A stretch of DNA of 38,998 nucleotides from an uncultured Bacteroidia bacterium (GTDB lineage Bacteria; Bacteroidota; Bacteroidia; J057; CALLMJ01): contig CALLNY010000092.1 in NCBI GenBank assembly GCA_938005475.1, forward strand, positions 1-38,998, written 5' to 3'. This document shows, piece after piece, positions 340 to 19,175 of the stretch. The position numbers were made by a program, and so were the translations under genes. The notes beneath the pieces were generated by a model. It was not told the origin of the DNA. It ran no database searches and saw only the letters and a list, made by a program, of their open reading frames with translations. Position 1 is the stretch's first letter; each line of letters opens with the position of its first letter.

Positions 340-2217
340 ATGGCAAAAATTAGTATAGACATTATCAGCGGCGATTTGACCCCTGAGAAGGTATATTTTG
401 GTATTGATTTAGGTACAACTAACTCGCTGATAGCTTATGTTAAAGATGGTAAACCTCATTGCATCGCTGATTTTGGCAAGGAGGTTATTGTTCCTTCTAT
501 TATTCACTTTGATAAATCAGGAGCTATTCAAGTAGGAGATGAAGCTAAGACTTTTCTTCTCACTGACCCCCAAAATACCATATTCTCTGTAAAAAGATTA
601 TTGGGTAAATCCTATAAAGATATTCAAAACGATTTATCCCATTTTAGTTACAAAATTATTGATAATGGTGAAAATGAACTTGTTAAGATACAAATTGGTG
701 AACGTTTCTATAGTCCCATTGAGTTATCAGCTTTAATTTTGAAAGAACTAAAAAAGCGCGCAGAACATCGTTTAAAAGTTCCAGTACAAGACGTTGTAAT
801 AACGGTCCCAGCTTATTTTAATGATTCTCAACGTCAAGCAACAAAAGATGCTGGTAAATTAGCAGGCCTCAATGTTTTAAGAATTATTTCCGAACCCACT
901 GCCGCCGCAATTGCTTATGGTTTAGGACTTAATAATCAACATGAAAAACAAAATATCGTTGTGTATGACCTAGGCGGTGGAACGTTTGATATTACTGTTT
1001 TAACTTTGGAAGAGGGAGTCTTTGATATTTTAGCAACTAATGGTGATACCTATCTCGGCGGCGATGATATGGATATTGCTATCGTAAAATTTTGGTTACA
1101 ACAACATCAAATCCCTGAAAATTACTTAAATCAAAATAAGCCCTTCGCTCAACAAATTAGGCTTTTAGCAGAAAAAGCAAAAAAACATCTTACAAACCAT
1201 CCTAATTTTGAAGATAGTATTCATTTTAACCATCAAAATATAAAGTTAACTTTAGAATTATCTACTTTTAACAATCTTATTCAATCAATAGTTGAAAGAA
1301 CGTTAAATTGTTGTAAAGCCGCATTAAAAGATTCGGGTCTATCATATAAAGACATAGACAAAGTGATTTTAGTGGGGGGTAGTACTCGGGTGCCCTTAGT
1401 TAAACAGAAAATTGAAGAATTCTTTGGAATTAAGCCGCTAGATAACATAGACCCTGACCAAATTGTAGCATTGGGAGCAGCATTACAAGCGGATGCTTTT
1501 TTAGGTAAATCTGAAGTCTATTTAGCGGATATCACACCTTTATCATTAGGAATTGAAACCGTAGGCGGATTGATGGATGTCATTATTCCAAGAAATACTA
1601 AAATTCCCACACGTGCAGGACGTCTATATACTACCTCCATAGACGGACAAGTAAACTTAAAAATTGCTGTTTATCAAGGAGAAAGAGAGCTTGTCAAAGA
1701 AAATAGGAAACTTGGTGAATTTATTTTAAAAGGGATTCCCGCTATGCCTGCTGGTTTACCTAAAATTGATATTCAATTTTTTATAGATTCAGACGGTATC
1801 CTAAAAGTTACTGCGAAAGAGTTAAGAAGTGGTGTAGAACAAACCATTGAGATCCAACCTTCTTTCGGCCTTACGGATGAAGAAGTAGAAAAAAGATTAT
1901 TAGATTCCATTCAACATGCCCAAGAAGATATTGAAACTCGTTTGCTATTGGAAGTAAAGGAAGAAGCCAAACAAATATTATATACTACTGATAAATTTTT
2001 ACGTAACTACTCACAATTTTTAACAAGTGAAGAAATATCAGGAACACAAAAATTGATACATCATTTATCAGAAGTTGTAAATACCGAACAGAAAGATGTA
2101 ATTCAAAAAGCAATTGAAGCACTCAATAATTTTAGTAAACCATTTGCCCAACGTGTAATGGATGCCGCAATACATCAAGCTCTTACAGGTAAAAATATTC
2201 AAGAAGATTTTAGATAA
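340..2217 (+). CDS. hscA: Fe-S protein assembly chaperone HscA (Hsp70 family)
   Basis: This is a 625-residue Hsp70. The ATPase domain shows GIDLGTTNS (21-29), the phosphate loop DLGGGTFD (210-217) and GGSTR (346-350); the beta-sandwich substrate domain starts with ITPLSLGIE (about 398) and a helical lid follows. The N-terminal extension of about 18 residues before the first ATPase strand, and the length, are typical of Bacteroidota HscA, which releases Fe-S clusters from the scaffold IscU with the J-protein HscB. The interdomain linker reads EVYLADI where LLLDV is usual. The stop overlaps the next ATG by one base (TAATG), so the rhomboid gene is co-transcribed. A candidate hscB is in this window at 18726-19175. 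A generic DnaK is less likely because the long acidic C-terminal tail is missing. Confidence 0.88.
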
Positions 2218-10230: not shown

Positions 10231-10353
10231 AATCTTAAAATACAAGTTCAGAAACTTGAAATCAATTAAACGAGTTAGAAAAATCGGTTAAGCAATTAGA
10301 AGTATTGTTAAATCTTAAAAAAAATTGGGAGATTATGAGGGGTTGTTACTTTT
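10231..10353 (+). pseudogene. Possible decayed coiled-coil ORF remnant
   Basis: The gap between dnaE and the GH3 gene holds two overlapping frames that read as amphipathic coil: LKIQVQKLEIN ending in a stop at 10267, and in another frame from 10263 QLNELEKSVKQLEVLLN and onward to a stop at about 10353 inside the 3' end of the GH3 gene. The pieces look like one coil separated by a frameshift. There is no recognisable family and the stretch is short, so chance in AT-rich DNA is a serious alternative. Confidence 0.25.
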
Positions 10354-13293
10354 GAAGTTTTCTATAGAACGGTATAGTAGACTCATAATTTGAGATCTAA
10401 CGCTTTCGTTATTGAATATAGGATTTTTGGTATTGGGGTAGGTTCGATTAGAAAGAAAGACAAAGACGAGGTCGTAATCGGGGTCAACCCAGAAGGCGGT
10501 ACCAGTGAACCCGAGGTGCCCATAGGTGTCTAAACTAGCTTGTGAGCAGGTTGGGCTGATTTTATTTTGTTTAGGTTCAGGTTTATCGAAGCCAAGTCCT
10601 CTTCTATGTTTAGATTGATTTTGTGAGGTAAAATACTTAATGGTAGCGGCGTCAAGGAAGCAAATACCACCGTATTCACCTCCATTTTTGAGCATAAAGC
10701 CTAGTTTTCCAAGGTCATAGATATTAGCGAATAATCCAGCATGGCCTGCTATTCCTCCCATAATTGCGGCGTTGGGGTCATGGACGTATCCTTGAATTTT
10801 TTGTCTACGCCAATAACTGTCAATTTCGGTAGGTGGGATGATGTAATTGGTATCTAAGGGTTGTTTATAGGGCTGAAAGAAAGTATTATACATTCCCATA
10901 GGTTCATAAAAGTGTAGTTTAACGTATTGATAAAGGTTCATTCCGCTTATTTTTTCCAATAGTTTAGCTAGTAAAATCATTCCTAAGTCACTGTAAACAA
11001 GTTCTTTTTTTTTGGTTATTTTAATGTTTTTTATTCTATTCCAGAATATAGTATCGAAACTCTCATGTACCCAAATTTTATCGGTGAGAGGTATATTAAA
11101 GCCATCTTTAGGGGCATTAGAGACCATATCGGGGTTAGACTTACCGTTTTTTAGGGTGGCTGTCCAAAAGTTTTCGTAGGGGGGCAAACCTGAGGTGTGA
11201 GTTAATAAATCAATGATTCGTAGTTTACCCACGGGATAGTCTTTTAAATTCGTTAAATACCTACCGATGGGGGCGTAAAGATTGATTAGCTGTTGTTCAT
11301 ATAAGTGCATGATACCGAGCGTGGTTGCGGCTACTTTGGTTATAGACGCAAGGTCATAGATGGTATAGAGGGGGTCTAAATCTTTTGAGGATTTAATGTA
11401 TTCAGTTTTTCCGATAGATTTAGCATAAACAATTTTGTTTCCTCTTATAACTAGAATAGAAGCACCTGGAAAAGCTTTTCTTTTGATGTAATGATGGACT
11501 GCCGTATCAATTTTGGATAGTGTATAAAAGTCCATGCCTACGTCTTCAGGTTGTGCGAATTGTAATCTTTGTATGGAATTAAAGTATAGAGGTCTTTTGC
11601 TAAACTGCGGAATAAAAATTGGTAACTTTCCTTCGGGAACGAGCCCCCCAAAAATAACTTCCGCTACGCCTTCTTGGCAATCTTTAACTTCTTCGTAAGC
11701 AATAATAATGGCTTCCTGATCTTCTAATGCTTTTAGTAAATAAGGACTTCCAAATATTGCTAAGATTTTACGAGGTTTTTGTAATTTTTGTATTTCATTA
11801 ATTAAATTTAAAGCATTAGGATTAAACTCATGCAATTTGGGGTCTTTACTGTTCATGTTAAAAATTCCTAAAATAATGTATTCATAGTTCTTTAAAATGT
11901 TTTTGTAATTTTCAATGACTTGTTGAGTGGCATCCAAAGGGATTTTGATTTCATCAATCTGGGTATAAACTTTTAGAGTTTTTAAAAAAATGGATTGTCC
12001 ATTATGATTACCTATTTGAACATAGGCAAATTTTTTGTTTAGTTCTTTAATGGGTAAGAGCCTACCTTCATTTTTTACAAGGGTAATAGATTTTTTGTAT
12101 AATTTAGAAACTAATAATTCTGCATACCGGGAATGTAAGACTTTATGGACATTTTGGGGGTCTACTAATTTATTTTGATGTAAATTTAACCATTCTTTGG
12201 CAAGTAGTATTTTAAAAACACGTTGGTTAATTTCTTGTTCAGAGATTTGTCCGTTTTGAATAGCTTTTTTGATTTTAGAGATAGCGTTGGGGATATTTTC
12301 AGCGAATAAAAGGATATCATTTCCTGCGAGTAAGGCTTTTAGAGCAATATCACCGCTTTGAAAGTATTTAGTAACGGCTCCCATATTAAGAGCATCCGTA
12401 AAGACAAGTCCGTGAAATTTTAAGGAATCTTTCAATAGATTTTGAACTATTTTAGAGGATAAAGTGGAGGGTAGATTGGGGGTAGGGTCTAATGCGGGGA
12501 TGAACAAATGGGCAACCATGATACCCATGACACCGTAGTCAATCATATGTTTAAAGGGGTAAAGTTCTAAACTATCAATTCTTTCAGCGGAATGCGGGAT
12601 GATAGGTAAATCTAGATGGGAGTCAGTATCGGTATCTCCATGTCCTGGGAAGTGTTTAGCGGTGGCAATGATACCATTTTTTTGCATACCTTGCATCATC
12701 ATTAAGGCTTTTTGGGTAACGTTATGTTTGTCTTCTCCGAAGGCTCGTGAGCCAATGACGGGATTATAAGGATTATTGTTTATATCGACAACGGGAGCAA
12801 AGTTGATGTGAACCCCCACTGCTCTTAATTGATGGGCTAGTTCTTCGCCGTATTTGTAGAGCAAGGAGTCATCTTCAATAGCGGCTAGTGTCATATTTTT
12901 AGGGTAGCGGATACAAGAATCCAAACGCATAGCAAGCCCCCATTCTGCATCTTGGCTTATCAACAAAGGAACATTGGAAATATTTTGAAAATAGTTAGCA
13001 TACTCCGCTTGTTTAGTTGGATGTCCTTGCATAAAAATTATTCCCCCGATTTTGTATTTTTTTATGGTTTCTTCGATATAATGAAAATTAGAATTTTGTT
13101 TTCCCGAATAGGCAGGAATCATAAATAATTGGGCAATTCTTTCTTCTAAGGTCATTTTTTCTAATGTTGATTTTGCCCATTCTCCTTTAACAAGAAATAA
13201 ATCTTGGGGTTTTTCAATAATTTGAATTTGCCCGAGGGAATAATCAAAAAAGAAAATTCCCAAAAGCCATAAAACTTTTCTAATTACTTGCAT
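10333..13293 (-). CDS. Secreted glycoside hydrolase family 3 (NagZ-like) fused to a class C beta-lactamase-like serine hydrolase
   Basis: This 986-residue protein has an N-terminal signal peptide (about 1-21). Residues about 40-370 are a GH3 domain of NagZ type: KHFPGHGDTDTDSH (213-226) holds the Asp/His acid-base pair and VFTDALNM the nucleophile Asp300. About 395-560 resembles the second GH3 domain. About 585-980 is a serine beta-lactamase/penicillin-binding-like domain with SITK (Ser650, Lys653), YSD (767-769) in place of YxN, and HLGFTGT as third motif. The domain order is known in Bacteroidota and suggests peptidoglycan or muropeptide turnover in the periplasm: removal of N-acetylglucosamine plus peptide or ester hydrolysis. 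Substrate specificity of the second half is not readable. Confidence 0.9.
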   Translation of the reverse strand: MQVIRKVLWLLGIFFFDYSLGQIQIIEKPQDLFLVKGEWAKSTLEKMTLEERIAQLFMIPAYSGKQNSNFHYIEETIKKYKIGGIIFMQGHPTKQAEYANYFQNISNVPLLISQDAEWGLAMRLDSCIRYPKNMTLAAIEDDSLLYKYGEELAHQLRAVGVHINFAPVVDINNNPYNPVIGSRAFGEDKHNVTQKALMMMQGMQKNGIIATAKHFPGHGDTDTDSHLDLPIIPHSAERIDSLELYPFKHMIDYGVMGIMVAHLFIPALDPTPNLPSTLSSKIVQNLLKDSLKFHGLVFTDALNMGAVTKYFQSGDIALKALLAGNDILLFAENIPNAISKIKKAIQNGQISEQEINQRVFKILLAKEWLNLHQNKLVDPQNVHKVLHSRYAELLVSKLYKKSITLVKNEGRLLPIKELNKKFAYVQIGNHNGQSIFLKTLKVYTQIDEIKIPLDATQQVIENYKNILKNYEYIILGIFNMNSKDPKLHEFNPNALNLINEIQKLQKPRKILAIFGSPYLLKALEDQEAIIIAYEEVKDCQEGVAEVIFGGLVPEGKLPIFIPQFSKRPLYFNSIQRLQFAQPEDVGMDFYTLSKIDTAVHHYIKRKAFPGASILVIRGNKIVYAKSIGKTEYIKSSKDLDPLYTIYDLASITKVAATTLGIMHLYEQQLINLYAPIGRYLTNLKDYPVGKLRIIDLLTHTSGLPPYENFWTATLKNGKSNPDMVSNAPKDGFNIPLTDKIWVHESFDTIFWNRIKNIKITKKKELVYSDLGMILLAKLLEKISGMNLYQYVKLHFYEPMGMYNTFFQPYKQPLDTNYIIPPTEIDSYWRRQKIQGYVHDPNAAIMGGIAGHAGLFANIYDLGKLGFMLKNGGEYGGICFLDAATIKYFTSQNQSKHRRGLGFDKPEPKQNKISPTCSQASLDTYGHLGFTGTAFWVDPDYDLVFVFLSNRTYPNTKNPIFNNESVRSQIMSLLYRSIENFKSNNPS

Positions 13294-18725: not shown

Positions 18726-19175
18726 TCAATCTTTATTTTCAATTAACCTCTTTAAGTACTTTCTTTCAAAATACTTTTGCGCAATTTTTTGTTTGTTGCT
18801 TTCATTTAACTCTCCTTTGAATAACTCATAAATGGTATTTATGTTTTGATTTAGTATATTTTGGGCTTCTTGTAAAGCATTAGTATTCCCTCCTTGAATA
18901 GCATCACTAAGTTCCATAATCTCCATCAAAAATTCAGAAGAAAGTTTTATTTCACTTGAACCATCTTCTTGAACAAAATTCCATTTTTTAAGAAAGTATT
19001 CTATTCGCAGTTCATCATCATTTAAAGTTTTATATGCAAGATGAATTAAAGATAATTGGTTTTCAGCATCAGAATTTTGAAATTCTTTAATCATCTGCAG
19101 ATATTTTTTTCTTAAAATTGTTTTATCTATAAAAAAATTAACGGGTTGTTCAAAAACAGAGAAATAATCAACCAT
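18726..19175 (-). CDS. hscB: HscB-like Fe-S co-chaperone lacking the HPD motif
   Basis: This 149-residue protein fits HscB along its length: N-terminal DYFSVFEQPVNFFID as in the HscB J domain, helix II LRKKYLQMIKEF, helix III LSLIHLAYKTL, then the HscB-specific segment RIEYFLKK and a C-terminal three-helix scaffold-binding domain (FLMEIMELSDAI, about 84-95). Where J proteins have HPD after helix II (about residues 33-35) it reads QNS. The HPD triplet is what normally triggers Hsp70 ATP hydrolysis. The reading frame is intact and has a -7-like box just upstream, so it does not look like a pseudogene. The partner HscA gene is in this window at 340-2217, not adjacent. No isc scaffold gene is nearby. 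Confidence 0.8.
   Translation of the reverse strand: MVDYFSVFEQPVNFFIDKTILRKKYLQMIKEFQNSDAENQLSLIHLAYKTLNDDELRIEYFLKKWNFVQEDGSSEIKLSSEFLMEIMELSDAIQGGNTNALQEAQNILNQNINTIYELFKGELNESNKQKIAQKYFERKYLKRLIENKD

Follow-up and report, generated by a model that had tools for sequence, protein, structure and literature searches.

An HscB without the HPD motif and an HscA with an altered interdomain linker in a genus of uncultured Bacteroidia

The HPD motif is described in reviews as invariant in J domains and as needed for stimulation of the Hsp70 ATPase (PMC9596805, PMC7289447). An open reading frame (ORF) of an uncultured Bacteroidia bacterium encodes an HscB in which this motif is missing. It lies at 18726..19175 on the minus strand of the window, the whole 38,998-nucleotide stretch of DNA analyzed here (contig CALLNY010000092.1, assembly GCA_938005475.1). 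The locus raises the question of whether the protein is an HscB at all, whether the loss is real, and how an HscA-HscB pair could work in its absence.

Identity of the protein and loss of HPD

The ORF is real and encodes a 149-aa protein with a J-like N-terminal hairpin and a C-terminal IscU-binding three-helix domain. The latter matches the Pfam HSCB_C model (PF07743; 18738..18938, minus strand) at 32.6 bits against a cut-off of 22.1 (E=1e-7). Its IscU-binding face is conserved (FLMEIME, YLKRL), and the counterparts of the IscU-binding residues L92, L96 and F153, taken from PMC3040723, are L, M and Y, which almost every HscB of the class shares. The Pfam DnaJ-domain model (PF00226) scores 12.9 bits, below its cut-off of 27.8, and the protein falls short of the NCBIfam HscB equivalog cut-offs (TIGR00714, 18.3 bits versus 46.75; NF002935, the best NCBIfam model, 35.7 bits versus 198). 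The closest solved sequences are Vibrio cholerae HscB and yeast Jac1. The AlphaFold model, built from a three-sequence alignment and strong in one of five models, has a mean pLDDT of 84.9 and comprises a hairpin of two helices (residues 18-32 and 38-52) and a C-terminal three-helix part. A Foldseek search with this model returned HscB structures as the top PDB entries (1FPO, 4IT5), and the J domains 2OCH and 2M6Y matched the hairpin; the antiparallel helix II/III hairpin of the J fold is thus present, as far as a model from so shallow an alignment can tell. Because the HSCB_C domain, the alignment and the fold agree, the protein is an HscB in its make-up despite the HPD-less turn, and the opposite reading, that it is not an HscB, is ruled out on the same grounds. 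Its C-terminal domain would have retained the binding of IscU.

Helix II (residues 18-32, AlphaFold secondary structure; 19080..19124, minus strand) reads LRKKYLQMIKEF and is followed by QNSDAENQLSLIHLAYKTL. The connection to helix III is reduced to a QNSDA turn (residues 33-37; 19065..19079, minus strand), from which HPD and about 10 further residues (in the alignment, about 11 columns filled in relatives) are absent; helix III itself is shortened (residues 38-52; 19020..19064, minus strand). The protein consequently lacks the feature that defines a J-domain protein, HPD in the helix II-III loop, and fits the type IV or pseudo-J class, in which a recognizable J fold carries a non-conservative replacement of HPD. 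The motif is found in none of the other reading frames of hscB. A second hscB is likewise missing from the genome, which has an estimated completeness of 100% and contains a single HSCB_C protein.

The congener G001, which belongs to the same genus and is the sole other family member compared, was assembled independently. Its HscB contains IYQNSHEQNKLSLIHNAY and is an intact 149-aa ORF, 62% identical to that of the window, with the turn YQNSHEQNK, of which QNS is common to both species. Since this other species has the same loss, a sequencing or assembly artefact is ruled out. HPD is present in all 53 other full-length HscBs of a survey of the order and 395 genomes of the class, in all 16 additional HscBs from 395 genomes of the phylum, a sample that overlaps the first, and in three of three named records (L017-L019; Chitinophagales, Lewinella, Myxococcaceae). 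The tally is therefore 72 HscBs with HPD, from Bacteroidota and one Myxococcaceae, and two without, which are sister species; no independent second loss was found among these overlapping samples of 395 class and 395 phylum genomes. A literature search for the HscB variant H32A gave no match in the papers covered. The earlier note, made from sequence alone, had described an HscB that has lost HPD, and it is borne out on both the identity of the protein and the loss.

Changes in the partner HscA and their timing

The only HscA of the genome is encoded at 340..2217 on the plus strand (625 aa). It has the full domain set, is 52-60% identical to the HscAs of relatives versus approximately 43% to DnaK, groups with the HscAs of its order in the tree, and retains the ATP-site residues checked. 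Its interdomain linker (1513..1533, plus strand) reads EVYLADI, and is identical in G001, the two HscAs being 79% identical overall. VYLADI thus replaces the canonical xLLLDV type, through D388E, L390Y, L392A and V394I in DnaK numbering, which is used throughout for HscA; L391 and D393 are kept, and one residue has been lost just upstream. All 51 other HscAs at the class level have an aliphatic linker (xLLLDV, xLLLDI, or close forms such as VLLDV, FLLDV and LLIDV). As a useful contrast case, a 2.0-Mb Bacteroidia genome (G267; HscA L191, HscB L126) encodes a very divergent HscA, with 37 otherwise conserved columns changed and a tree branch of 4.4, yet keeps both HPD and LLLDV.

We scanned the genus HscA against these 51 sequences over the 197 columns that are at least 94% conserved. 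Both species depart from the consensus at eight of these: N170S, E217D, V218I, L382F, L390Y, L392A, Y505F and M515R. Position 170 (codon 889..891, plus strand) is S in the window and N in 50 of the 51 others; E217D and V218I (codons 1024..1029, plus strand) belong to a strand that pairs with the linker (PMC6843406). PMC4022485 quotes a list of DnaK residues implicated in the binding of DnaJ or in stimulation by it: Y146-D148, R151, R167, N170, T173, T215, E217, V218, T383 and D388-L392. Five of the eight changes (N170S, E217D, V218I, L390Y, L392A) fall in this list (hypergeometric P=1.7e-5), compared with 21 of 232 private HscA changes in other genomes (Fisher P=5e-4), and a second list, drawn from two further reviews, gives P=2e-4. 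All of these values are descriptive, as the lists came into use once the changed positions had been identified and a single branch was tested. At a conservation threshold of 98%, two changed columns remain, which leaves the docking-list comparison without power.

According to the known mechanism, H33 of the J domain contacts the backbone of L391, P34 contacts P419, and D35 pulls R167 away from D393 and D481 (PMC8215388, PMC7289447, PMC13012618). The genus HscA keeps R167, Q378, D393, D481, P419 and D326; an explanation by loss of R167, the HPD receptor, or of D393 or D481 is ruled out. Judged from the aligned residues, the HPD trigger is missing in the genus HscB while its receptor, R167-D393-D481, persists in HscA. 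The side chains of L390 and L392 face the nucleotide-binding domain (NBD), and L392 pairs with V218 (PMC6843406), so the linker change would be partly internal repacking, in addition to altering the surface that faces the J domain; L392A and V218I together may also reflect such repacking. On the HscB side, helix III carries L and H in both species at E. coli HscB positions 51 and 55, where others have S/T/A and N/T; an alignment of the two J domains equates these positions with DnaJ F47 and K51. As DnaJ F47 is reported to be one of several residues that connect with L391/L392 and E217 (PMC13012618), the small-to-large change at its HscB equivalent, alongside L392A in HscA, is a possible size swap.

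The two genomes without HPD are precisely those with the linker change. The HscA tree places the genus among the relatives of its order, adjoining G008 (support 94/87), which has HPD and LLLDV. In the HscB tree, the genus stem is long (2.0) and the tips are short (0.22 and 0.53), and other HscBs of the order are long as well. Within this sampling, both changes map to the same genus stem, once, after the split from the nearest relative compared, and inheritance looks vertical from the trees. The association represents one evolutionary event, and co-occurrence alone could be due to chance, because the two species are not independent. The unusual linker reported in the earlier note was confirmed, with the correction that L391 and D393 remain, and its suggestion of co-evolution gains support from the concentration of the few genus-specific HscA changes at J-domain and linker docking residues.

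Possible working of the pair

Other features of the system are unchanged. IscU keeps LPPVK, and iscS, iscU and an IscA-like gene (iscA) sit together. The DnaK of the genus keeps N170, E217 and V218 and has an aliphatic linker, VVLVDV, and its partner DnaJ has HPD; a drift shared by every Hsp70 of the genus is accordingly ruled out as the origin of the linker change. As separate observations, in two genomes of f3, an order-level family of large-genome relatives (G003, G009, G012 and others), the DnaK linker (L044 and L045) is IQLLDVIP where VLLLDVTP would be usual, with a polar residue at 390, and the window contains, at 10333-13293 on the minus strand, a 986-aa ORF that, judged by eye, fuses a glycoside-hydrolase-3-like domain to a serine-hydrolase (beta-lactamase-like) domain.

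Published work plainly predicts that stimulation is lost, since H to Q or D to N changes in HPD abolish ATPase stimulation in tested systems (PMC8215388, PMC13254874) and substitutions at DnaK linker positions 390-392 lower the affinity for DnaJ about tenfold (PMC6843406). Examples of HPD-independent action have also been reported: with an HPD/AAA variant, some systems retain part of the stimulation (PMC13012618), and a designed J analogue without HPD is reported to stimulate Hsp70 independently of the motif (PMC13254874).

The J-like half of HscB shows 70% identity between the two species, against 56% for the C-terminal domain; 35 pairs of HPD-bearing HscBs with similar C-terminal divergence average 60% and 50%, respectively. 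Because its conservation matches that of HPD-bearing hairpins, the HPD-less hairpin is, by this comparison, about as constrained as working J domains and not vestigial. NG86 estimates of dN/dS between the two species, with dS near saturation, are approximately 0.13 for HscB and 0.09 for HscA. The basic helix-II residues R22, K23, K24 and K30 are kept in the alignment columns, and with the constraint on the J-like half, this indicates that docking of HscB on HscA probably still matters.

With the hairpin constrained and HscA changed around the linker, we favor a pair that continues to dock and to cycle on IscU, its linker having been re-tuned. HscB would bind IscU through its C-terminal domain, as its conserved residues imply, while its N-terminus is modelled as a truncated J-type hairpin. 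This hairpin would dock on HscA via the basic helix II and the changed helix III, against a linker and an underlying NBD surface that may have been re-packed, given the observed L390Y, L392A, V218I, E217D and N170S. Linker release or ATP hydrolysis would then be triggered by IscU together with the shortened hairpin, or need little trigger, rather than by an HPD aspartate displacing R167. We consider the chances about even that the two proteins form a working ISC pair, with a co-remodelled docking site, that acts on IscU without HPD. A further proposal, that this is a natural, dedicated pair in which a J-type co-chaperone lacking HPD goes on regulating its Hsp70 thanks to compensating changes in the linker and the NBD pocket, is tentative, and we hold it at somewhat below even.

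A serious rival is that stimulation has been lost and HscB is left as an IscU-delivery factor, since, according to simulations, an HPD/AAA variant would no longer bind DnaK stably (PMC13012618). The hairpin would then be idle and HscA would cycle on its basal or IscU-stimulated ATPase, which accords with the missing HPD, the altered J-responsive linker of HscA, and the retention of both the IscU-binding face of HscB and LPPVK in IscU. An idle hairpin sits poorly with a J-like half at least as constrained as functional J domains, with retained basic residues in helix II, and with new helix-III residues, L51 and H55, fixed in both species, and we regard this reading as rather unlikely. The earlier note had suggested that HscB is kept mainly as a scaffold-binding adaptor; this suggestion is not supported, as the J half is the better conserved of the two halves, just as in HPD-bearing HscBs.

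It is less probable still that another J protein stimulates HscA, with HscB confined to handing over IscU. Both species have DnaJ and a second J protein, with HPD intact in each, and E. coli DnaJ weakly stimulates HscA though it is unable to partner it (PMC9596805). The second protein (G000 contig C102, L002:1486-2427, plus strand; L086 in the congener) combines, in the window's genome, an HPD-intact J domain with subsequent leucine-rich repeats (Pfam DnaJ and LRR), an unusual combination, and is the only J protein besides DnaJ found in the window's genome. Yet the genus has no extra J protein, with two J-protein matches against two to seven in relatives. Moreover, its HscA, unlike DnaK, has moved away from a DnaK-like docking site.

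Finally, the HscA-HscB system could be decaying. In the sister family f3, neither HscA nor HscB gave a match, and the canonical iscU match was weak or absent in the two genomes checked, which together suggest that its ISC system has been replaced. Such decay would fit the long HscB stem, but intact ORFs, low dN/dS, strongly conserved IscU and HscA (the latter at 79% within the genus) and few, clustered HscA changes make it very improbable.

Relation to known J proteins

The docking, re-tuned pair that we favor resembles several known systems in part. With HscB, Hsc20 and Jac1 (E. coli 1FPO, V. cholerae 4IT5, human 3BVO, yeast Jac1 3UO2), the genus HscB shares the two-domain layout, the helix II/III hairpin, the C-terminal IscU-binding three-helix domain and a genome with HscA and an LPPVK-bearing IscU; it differs in having lost HPD along with about 10 residues between helices II and III, and its partner HscA differs in the linker and the NBD pocket. 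Type IV or pseudo J proteins, such as Pam16, DNAJB13 and exported J-like proteins of Plasmodium, likewise have a J fold without a functional HPD (PMC13254874). Pam16, however, pairs with the HPD-bearing Pam18, whereas the genus has no HPD-bearing HscB, and in the genus the Hsp70 partner is itself changed at the docking site. HPD-less J mimics, namely HSV-1 ICP22 and the designed J analogue, are reported to engage Hsp70, the designed one also to stimulate it (PMC13254874); these are of unrelated origin, while the genus HscB belongs to a lineage of housekeeping co-chaperones and has a matched Hsp70. E. coli DjlB and DjlC, with HscC, similarly tie a J variant (HPE) to a divergent, dedicated Hsp70 (PMC13254874), although theirs is a conservative D to E change and the genus HscB has lost the whole motif.

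Taken together, the evidence suggests rewiring of the pair, not its breakdown. Such a pair offers a natural experiment: it can show which of the steps by which a J domain acts (docking, displacement of R167 by HPD, and linker release) are replaceable, and how an Hsp70 pair is rewired around a client, IscU, that has hardly changed.
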